52,118 nt of DNA. Origin: Halobacteriales archaeon SW_8_68_21 (GTDB lineage Archaea; Halobacteriota; Halobacteria; Halobacteriales; Haloferacaceae). The stretch lies in contig PXST01000035.1 of assembly GCA_003023405.1 (NCBI GenBank), positions 1 through 52,118 of the forward strand, given 5' to 3'. The translations under genes were made by a program, and so were the position numbers. The notes below the pieces were generated by a model. That model was given only the letters and a program-made list of their open reading frames with translations, did not search any database and was not told where the DNA came from. Position 1 is the first letter of the stretch. The number at the start of each line of letters is the position of its first letter. Shown one piece after another: positions 48,455 to 50,337 of the stretch.

Positions 48455-48926
48455 TTACGCGCCGTCGTCGATCAGGTCACCGAACACGGAGGCAGCGGTG
48501 TCCGGGATGTCGAAGTCGTGGTAGTGTTCGCCCTTCTCGTTCGAGAGGATGTCGAGCGCGGCCGCGGCACCGTCGCCCGCCGAGATGACCGCCTGCCACT
48601 CCTCGGCGCGGGCCATCGCGCCGGTCGCGTAGACGCCGTCGACACTTGTCTCCGTCGAGAGGTCGACGCTGACGGTGTCGTCGTCGTCGAACTCGCAACT
48701 GAGCGACTCGGCGAGGTCGCGGTTCGCGCCCGTCGCGAGGACGACGTATTCGGCGTCGTACTCCCCCTCCTCGGTCGTCATCGTGAAGCCGTCGCCGGCG
48801 GCCTCGACCTCGGTGACCGCCTCGCCCTGATGGCGGTCGACGCCGAAGTCGTCGACCTGCTGGCGGGCGGGCATCATGAACTCGCTGCTGCTGACCGAGC
48901 CGACGCCGAGGTAGTTGAACAGGTGG

Positions 48927-49240
48927 TACTAGACTACCTAACCCTTCAAGATTAGTGTGTTCAGTGTTATCTTATGATATGGCCCGAGAAGTAACCCATG
49001 AAGAGAAAGGCCCTGAACCAATCGATAAAGAAACCTTAGACGAACAAGGCGGAACTGCTTTTATTTGTCGTTGTGGTCTTTCGGATAACCAACCATTTTG
49101 CGACGGATCACATAATCAAACATCGGATGAAAAAGAGGAAGAATTATACAAATACGACGGGGAAGATAGGAAAGAAATTGAAGAGATAGTTTACAAGGAT
49201 TAGGAGAAGGTTAGCTTTTCTAACGTCAACCGGGACAAAA
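48927..49240 (+). mobile_element. 314-bp low-GC insertion carrying one gene, 4-bp flanking repeat
   Basis: GTGG occurs at 48923-48926 and again at 49241-49244. Removing one copy and the 314 bases between restores the reductase reading frame through HKAHLFNYLG. The insert is far lower in GC than the host and holds one CDGSH gene with a short leader and trailer. It has no transposase and no clear terminal inverted repeats. Subterminal CTAACCCTTC (near 48939) and its imperfect complement GAAGGTTAG (near 49206) face each other, and GTTAG-CTTTT-CTAAC forms a small hairpin. Confidence 0.7.
48979..49203 (+). CDS. CDGSH iron-sulfur domain protein
   Basis: The 74-residue protein starts MAREVTHEEKGPEPIDKETL and has the CDGSH [2Fe-2S] motif CRCGLSDNQPFCDGSH (3Cys-1His ligation), with an acidic-lysine tail DEKEEELYKYDGEDRKEIEE. 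Such proteins carry labile iron-sulfur clusters for redox or cluster transfer. Codon use is AT-rich (AAA, GAA, TTA, ATA common), unlike every neighbour. That suggests a recent origin from a lower-GC halophile such as a Haloquadratum or nanohaloarchaeal relative, which is inference. I chose the ATG at 48979 over the GTG eight codons earlier. It lies inside the disrupted reductase, antisense to it. Confidence 0.92.
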   Translation: MAREVTHEEKGPEPIDKETLDEQGGTAFICRCGLSDNQPFCDGSHNQTSDEKEEELYKYDGEDRKEIEEIVYKD

Positions 49241-49455
49241 GTGGGCCTTGTGTATCCACGTTCCGTCCGTGTCGAAGAGGACCGCGTCGAGTCCGTTCTT
49301 GCTCGCGAACAGTCCGGCGCTCAGTCCGGCGGGTCAACCGCCGACGATTGCGACGCTCGCCATGGTCGCTGTATCGCGCCGTCCGGAAATAAGAGTTGAC
49401 GGTAGCAGGGATAGACGGAAGCAACGCGCCCGACGGCAGCCGTGAGACGACGCCC

Positions 49456-50337
49456 CTACTCCCCGAAGTTCGCGAGTGAGCCGGCGGGATCGTCGTCGCG
49501 GTCGTCGCTCTCGTCGTCGTCGCTTTCGCCCCCGTTCCCGTCGCAGTCCTCGTCTTCGTCCACCTCTCCGGTCGTCGGGTCGTGCCAGGGGGTCTCGGAG
49601 TCGACGGGGTCTACGGCGCGCTGTAAGTCGCTTTCGTCGTACTCGACCTCCCCGTCGAGCAGCATCGCGAGGCGCTGCCAGCGCGCGCTCTGCTCGTCTT
49701 CGCCCTCCGGACCGACGCGCGCGCCGTGGGTCTTGAAGAACCTCGTGTCGCGGTCCAGTCTCGATCCCTCACCGGTGTGGCCGTCGAAGACGGCGTCGAA
49801 CCGACCTTCCGGTTCGAGGTCGCCGACGGGGAAGTCGTGGGCCGGCTCCTCGCCGCGCTCGCGGGCGTCGGCCCTGACCTCGGCGACGACAGAGAAGTAG
49901 GCGTCGGCGTTCGACGCCTCGCGGGTCGAGCGCGCGCGGGCGGCCGCCAGCGCGGCGTGGATCGCACAGAGGCGGCCCTTCCACTCTGCGGGGTCCCAGC
50001 GCTCGGTGGCGAGCTCCTCGTAGCGTTCGATCGCCAGCGCCACGTCGCTGCCCGCCCGGAGGTCCTCGACGACGTAGAGGTTCAGGCGGTCCCAGAGGTT
50101 CCACGCGTAGCCGGAGCGGGCCAGCTCCCACGCCGCCCACGCCGCGACCTCTTCGTCGGAGCGGCGGACCGCCTTCTGGAGGGTACTTGAGACGACGTAG
50201 CGGCTGTAGCCGCCGTCGGTCTCGTTGGCCTCCTTTGCCTCGCCGAAGTCGTTCTCGCCCGTCGCGTCCGGCGTCCGATCGGTTTCGAGGCTCCCGTCCG
50301 ACCCGAACGTCGCCTGTCTGTCGTCGCCGTCGGCCAT
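49456..50337 (-). CDS. Stand-alone RarA/MgsA C-terminal-like protein
   Basis: The 293-residue protein has an acidic head (1-42) and then SRYVVSSTLQKAVRRSDEEV, AWAAWELARSGYAWNLWDRL and NLYVVEDLRAGSDVALAIER. This echoes the helical C-terminal part of RarA/MgsA/WRNIP1 clamp-loader-like ATPases (the K-x-x-R-x-S-D, E-D-I-G pattern). FPVGDLEPEGRFDAVFDGHT and RFFKTHGARVGPE echo that family's distal HT-x-x-G segment. No AAA+ ATPase domain precedes it. RarA proteins act at stalled replication forks; the role of this lone domain is unknown. The C-terminal 50 residues are acidic and disordered. Confidence 0.6.
   Translation of the reverse strand: MADGDDRQATFGSDGSLETDRTPDATGENDFGEAKEANETDGGYSRYVVSSTLQKAVRRSDEEVAAWAAWELARSGYAWNLWDRLNLYVVEDLRAGSDVALAIERYEELATERWDPAEWKGRLCAIHAALAAARARSTREASNADAYFSVVAEVRADARERGEEPAHDFPVGDLEPEGRFDAVFDGHTGEGSRLDRDTRFFKTHGARVGPEGEDEQSARWQRLAMLLDGEVEYDESDLQRAVDPVDSETPWHDPTTGEVDEDEDCDGNGGESDDDESDDRDDDPAGSLANFGE

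Follow-up and report, generated by a model that had tools for sequence, protein, structure and literature searches.

A 314-bp CDGSH gene insert in a haloarchaeal reductase gene, probably an integrase-less integrative element at a site shared with tyrosine-recombinase elements

Results

A low-GC insert carrying one gene interrupts a reductase gene

The DNA analysed here (the window) is a stretch of 52,118 nucleotides from Halobacteriales archaeon SW_8_68_21 (GCA_003023405.1, contig PXST01000035.1), whose draft genome (G000) comprises 2.44 Mb in 55 contigs and is 80% complete. The locus under study contains the following features.

48455–48926, minus strand: C-terminal part of the reductase (Pyr_redox_2), with 95% DNA identity to the intact gene of G045
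48455–49363, minus strand: interrupted NAD(P)/FAD (thioredoxin-reductase-like) gene, whole
48923–48926 and 49241–49244: left and right copies of the direct repeat GTGG, with 314 bp between them
48927–49240, plus strand: inserted unit, 314 bp, 39.8% GC
48979–49203, plus strand: CDGSH iron-sulfur protein gene (74 aa; PF09360, E = 3.5e-11), antisense to the reductase
49241–49363, minus strand: N-terminal part of the reductase, with a nonsense TGA at 49334–49336
49456–50337, minus strand: conserved gene for a 293-aa protein, outside the unit; it adjoins the reductase in many members of the genus

An initial annotation had described a single-gene, low-GC insertion that splits the reductase between two GTGG copies, and this description was confirmed. 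The window as a whole has 69.7% GC, and the insert is its lowest-GC stretch of 314 bp. The CDGSH gene is the sole open reading frame inside the insert; an integrase is not encoded there, so the insert is not an autonomous tyrosine-recombinase integrative element. A search of 52 genomes of the genus found the insert DNA in the window genome only. Because a random junction carries a direct repeat of at least 4 bp with p = 0.013, the GTGG repeat is weak evidence by itself, and it acquires significance through comparison with relatives.

Excision had been proposed to restore the ancestral frame. Removal of 318 bp and joining of the flanks indeed yielded a 196-aa reductase frame, but with one extra stop that had gone unmentioned: the TGA at codon 10, a glycine codon in relatives, is a second, separate lesion that lies upstream of the insert in the direction of the gene. 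Compared with G045, the C-terminal part shows 17 base differences in amino-acid-changing codons and 8 in silent ones, versus 6 and 5, respectively, in the same comparison of the sister pair G045/G015; these counts are consistent with relaxed constraint on the window's copy. Alleles with an empty site exist, the nearest being those of G045, G015 and G046 (93–95% DNA identity), and most genomes of the genus have a full-length reductase. In the family, full-length orthologues were counted in 144 of 170 genomes by reading of the search output. We also noted that G045 and G015, unlike the window and many relatives, have an extra gene (subtilisin-like by eye) that separates the reductase from the gene for the 293-aa protein.

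The insert encodes a CDGSH protein of a distinct type

The protein encoded by the insert has a complete ligand motif, C-x-C-x2-S-x3-P-x-C-D-G-S-H, and matches the family pattern C-x-C-x2-[ST]-x3-P-x-C-D-G-[SAT]-H. It has family (PF09360), motif and length in common with the CDGSH iron-sulfur proteins of haloarchaea, but its type differs from the copy usually present in the genus: it has QGG before the first cysteine (QGG type), where the usual copy has GDD-G, and none of the genomes in which this type was seen has an intact reductase. The nearest relatives are 59–70% identical, and samples of the order and the class contained no closer donor (none > 70% identity). Searches of viral contigs with the CDGSH protein, both singly and as an alignment, recovered no relative from haloarchaea; phages gave no relative at all, plasmids only relatives of ≤ 58% identity, and a scan of genome contigs only distant bacterial genes. 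A 4-aa deletion was considered as a marker of CDGSH genes at the reductase site and was rejected, as it occurs elsewhere too (L027).

Integrase-carrying elements occupy the same reductase site

Two relatives, G049 and G021, have larger inserted DNA in the reductase, and the better resolved of these elements maps as follows.

G049:C64, about 202,510–216,560 (L106 5911–19960): G049 element, at the same reductase codon

This low-GC element of ∼14 kb lies between the N- and C-terminal parts of the G049 reductase, with a core repeat of 7 bp (AGCCCAT), and has 33–47% GC across most of its two ends. At its edge it encodes a 422-aa XerA-like tyrosine recombinase (Phage_integrase PF00589, E = 1.2e-20), and the adjoining reductase open reading frame starts at the same codon. 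Also present are genes resembling IS transposases and several encoding proteins without a Pfam/NCBIfam match. In G021, an integrase 68% identical to that of G049 adjoins the C-terminal part of the reductase; the N-terminal part and the other end of the element are on a different contig, such that the full extent is not seen, and the two ends share a core repeat of 9 bp, GTGCGCCTT. Despite the different lengths of these repeats (4 bp for the insert versus 7 and 9 bp), all three end on the same base, the third and last of the His40 codon, which an independent cut would hit by chance in about 1 of 588 cases.

Judged by these sequence comparisons, the cut at His40 is a recurrent integration site in the genus, and the predicted attB of the site lies in reductase codons K38-A39-H40. 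The absence of an att site, as initially annotated, does not hold, since G021 and G049 use this very site as theirs. The initial annotation had also named larger inserted DNA as the finding that would mark the insert as a remnant; such DNA does exist in the two relatives, but the window insert is a separate unit bounded by ends that belong to it. We found no other close relatives of the G021/G049 integrase among 392 genomes of the order, none in the 80% complete G000, and no element with both an integrase of this type and a CDGSH gene. Viral contigs searched with the integrase yielded no relative, and phage and plasmid relatives were ≤ 39% identical. In another genus, we observed a reductase pseudogene (G158:C361:412-636) whose sequence is broken off after residue 36 and continues from residue 64, near the same site.

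The ends of the insert resemble those of the larger elements

Two end sequences were recognized inside the insert.

48934–48955, plus strand: C-terminal-side end sequence, CTACCTAACCCTTCAAGATTAG; resembles the integrase-side ends of G021 and G049 and overlaps the presumed promoter
49215–49229, minus strand: N-terminal-side end motif, TTGACGTTAGAAAAG, with the pattern TTRACGTTNNATAAG; RACGTT starts 13 bp inside the junction

Reading inward from the N-side junction, 13 bp are followed by AACGTTCAATAAG in G021, AACGTTGCATAAG in G049 and GACGTTAGAAAAG in G000. The G000 end matches each of the two elements at 18 of 33 positions, ungapped and at a fixed offset; the combined score (shuffle p = 2.5e-5) was reached by no other of the 562 windows of the insert. 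When one mismatch is allowed, TTRACGTTNNATAAG matches once in the whole 2.44-Mb genome, exactly at the end of the insert; as the R and N letters of the pattern were set after the insert had been seen, the shuffle test gives the less biased estimate. The C-side end could be aligned only by admitting gaps and shifting it by 3 bp (shuffle p = 0.004). The insert therefore has end sequences of the same kind as the integrase-encoding relatives on both sides, in addition to sharing their attB to the nucleotide. The place and direction of its CDGSH gene are those of the integrase gene in the larger elements.

The ends of G021 and G049 each form an inverted repeat, whereas those of the insert do not do so significantly (p = 0.15); this bears out the earlier remark on the lack of clear terminal inverted repeats and removes a defining trait of IS elements and MITEs. 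The suggestion that the inward-facing ends could be recognition sites is likewise upheld, as they resemble a recombinase recognition sequence. A hairpin trailer had been noted 3′ of the CDGSH gene. It folds no better than shuffled sequences (z = −0.19) and partly overlaps the element-end motif.

CDGSH genes recur at the reductase site

Besides the window genome, only three genomes of the genus (G030, G043 and G051) lacked a reductase in a search with the C-terminal part. Within the genus, the CDGSH genes most similar to that of the insert are in these three genomes. In G051, the CDGSH gene is at the same locus, between decayed N- and C-terminal parts of the reductase. In G043, it lies against an N-terminal reductase remnant beside a metE-like gene, a neighbourhood that is the reductase locus in the clade of G043 (G001, G003); G030 has the same metE-like neighbour and no reductase remnant. 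In both G043 and G051, reductase homology reaches the att site or ends a few bases from it, the CDGSH gene has the orientation of that in the insert, and its stop codon is about 20–31 bp from the junction. The pattern TTRACGTTNNATAAG had no match in G051 and its sole match in G043 was elsewhere; the ends are decayed in both genomes. By eye, no reductase remnant was evident beside the CDGSH gene in the g20, g22, g12 and g25 genomes.

A tree of the 293-aa neighbour protein, used as a proxy for the species, assigned G000, G051 and the pair G030/G043 to three distinct clades, each of them supported, so that at least three separate CDGSH insertions into the reductase are likely the simplest account. 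The CDGSH proteins themselves do not form one clade: over 78 columns, G043 groups with G051, and G000 with G422 of another family.

QGG-type CDGSH genes were found in 14 genomes (G000, G030, G043, G051, G147, G149–G152, G156, G157, G100, G163 and G422), none of which (0/14) has an intact reductase; they come from several lineages. Within the family, the table of QGG type against intact reductase reads 13/0 against 13/144 (Fisher p = 1e-12). This count treats related species as independent, includes several incomplete genomes and draws on the better-scoring CDGSH genes only; the mutual exclusion is accordingly a lead. Two readings suggest themselves: the CDGSH protein may take over from a lost reductase, or its presence may be tolerable only after loss of the reductase.

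Discussion

We consider it likely that a tyrosine recombinase of the G021/G049 kind placed the insert, which would make it a single-gene integrative element lacking an integrase. The insert lies at the same nucleotide as two integrase-carrying elements, shares an end motif with them at the same spacing, and has counterparts such that CDGSH genes recur at the site in three clades. Against this account stand the shorter repeat of the insert (4 bp), the looser fit of its C-side end, the decayed ends in G043 and G051, the missing reductase remnant in G030, and the failure to find either an element that combines this integrase with a CDGSH gene or a close relative of the integrase in G000. The recombination event and the source of the recombinase would be as follows. 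A G021/G049-type enzyme would recombine the unit into attB at the K38-A39-H40 codons. The product would be a destroyed reductase in which short core repeats flank the two element ends, the CDGSH gene and the short stretch upstream of it; the recombinase would either have worked in trans or have disappeared later. An enzymatic process moving a one-gene unit, as proposed initially, is in keeping with such site-specific placement. Two further proposals were mistaken or superfluous. Instead of belonging to a new cassette system, the unit is related to ordinary integrative elements, because the integrase-carrying elements of G049 and G021 use the same site; and capture from a lower-GC halophile need not be invoked, because the G049 element at the site is itself low in GC over most of its ends.

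How the unit became small is less clear. We favour, at about even confidence, a compact unit moved in trans over erosion around a retained gene, because of its compactness and the repeated tight spacing to the junction. Erosion, which differs from the preferred account only in this respect and is a sub-case of it, falls somewhat short of an even chance: here, a full integrase element with a CDGSH gene would have integrated, and all but this gene and the ends would have been deleted later. att-flanked remnants without a recombinase are known as CIMEs (PMC5704250), and decay is visible in the window reductase, with its TGA and its excess of amino-acid changes. Moreover, as QGG-type CDGSH genes occur only where the reductase is gone, selection could retain the gene in an eroded element. 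However, erosion would need to have spared both ends within about 50 bp of the CDGSH gene, and since the CDGSH stop codon is close to the junction in G043 and G051 too, erosion of this kind must then have happened repeatedly. The insert contains no remnants of other element genes, and no larger CDGSH-bearing parent element was found.

Recurrence by separate placement must also be weighed against a single ancestral CDGSH insertion whose interrupted allele spread between species by homologous recombination. G000, G051 and G043 do share site and orientation, and homologous reductase flanks would have been available, but the G000 flanks are 95% identical to those of its own sisters and not low in GC, while the G043 remnant is of its own clade's type (VIVV start) and sits at a different locus, beside the metE-like gene. 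The CDGSH copies are only 62–75% identical and not one clade; a single origin keeps some probability, and we regard spread of one allele as improbable. Less credible still is transposition of a transposon, an IS or a MITE that duplicated 4 bp of its target, or foreign DNA joined by chance at a 4-bp microhomology. Such origins would fit the 4-bp direct repeat and the lack of an integrase in the insert, yet the insert has no significant terminal inverted repeat of its own, and neither process explains a junction at the nucleotide of two integrase elements or the shared end motif. An assembly chimera might be suspected in an incomplete genome of many contigs, but both junctions preserve the reading frame of the reductase and fall on an att site that serves elements in other genomes, and this reading has the lowest probability of all.

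Integration into protein-coding genes is known for archaeal tyrosine recombinases; examples are virus BJ1, which sits in a gene for HMG-CoA reductase, and the cryptic integrated elements of Thaumarchaeota (PMC8371274, PMC6563490). Like these, the insert lies in a protein-coding gene, with a short putative core repeat, at a site reused by related elements; unlike these, it has no integrase and holds one gene in 314 bp, whereas the smallest cryptic integrated element listed in PMC6563490 measures 2.6 kb and encodes an integrase. CIMEs, cis-mobilizable elements known from bacteria, where they are described as what is left of larger elements after decay (PMC5704250), likewise have attL and attR flanks and no recombinase, although the core repeat of the insert is short. 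What sets the insert apart from CIMEs is that one gene type recurs singly at this position across several archaeal species. The literature searched, mostly outside subscription journals, held no description of such a unit with one gene and no integrase.

The insert also bears a likeness to the cassettes of integrons. An integron cassette consists of one gene with a recombination site and is moved by a tyrosine recombinase in trans. Here, no integron platform or array was seen, and the target is a host enzyme gene. A bolder and rather doubtful extension of the preferred account would make the insert a self-compensating minimal integrative cassette, in which the 314-bp one-gene unit is moved in trans by the tyrosine recombinases of resident elements, the CDGSH protein assumes the role of the lost reductase, and insertion is tolerated or favoured, recurring across species for this reason.

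The locus shows how small an element placed by an integrase may be, and points to one enzyme gene of halophilic archaea as a repeated landing site. It is also a case where the element may bring along a functional substitute for the very gene that its insertion destroys, and the apparent mutual exclusion of QGG-type CDGSH proteins and the reductase would offer a way into the roles of both proteins.
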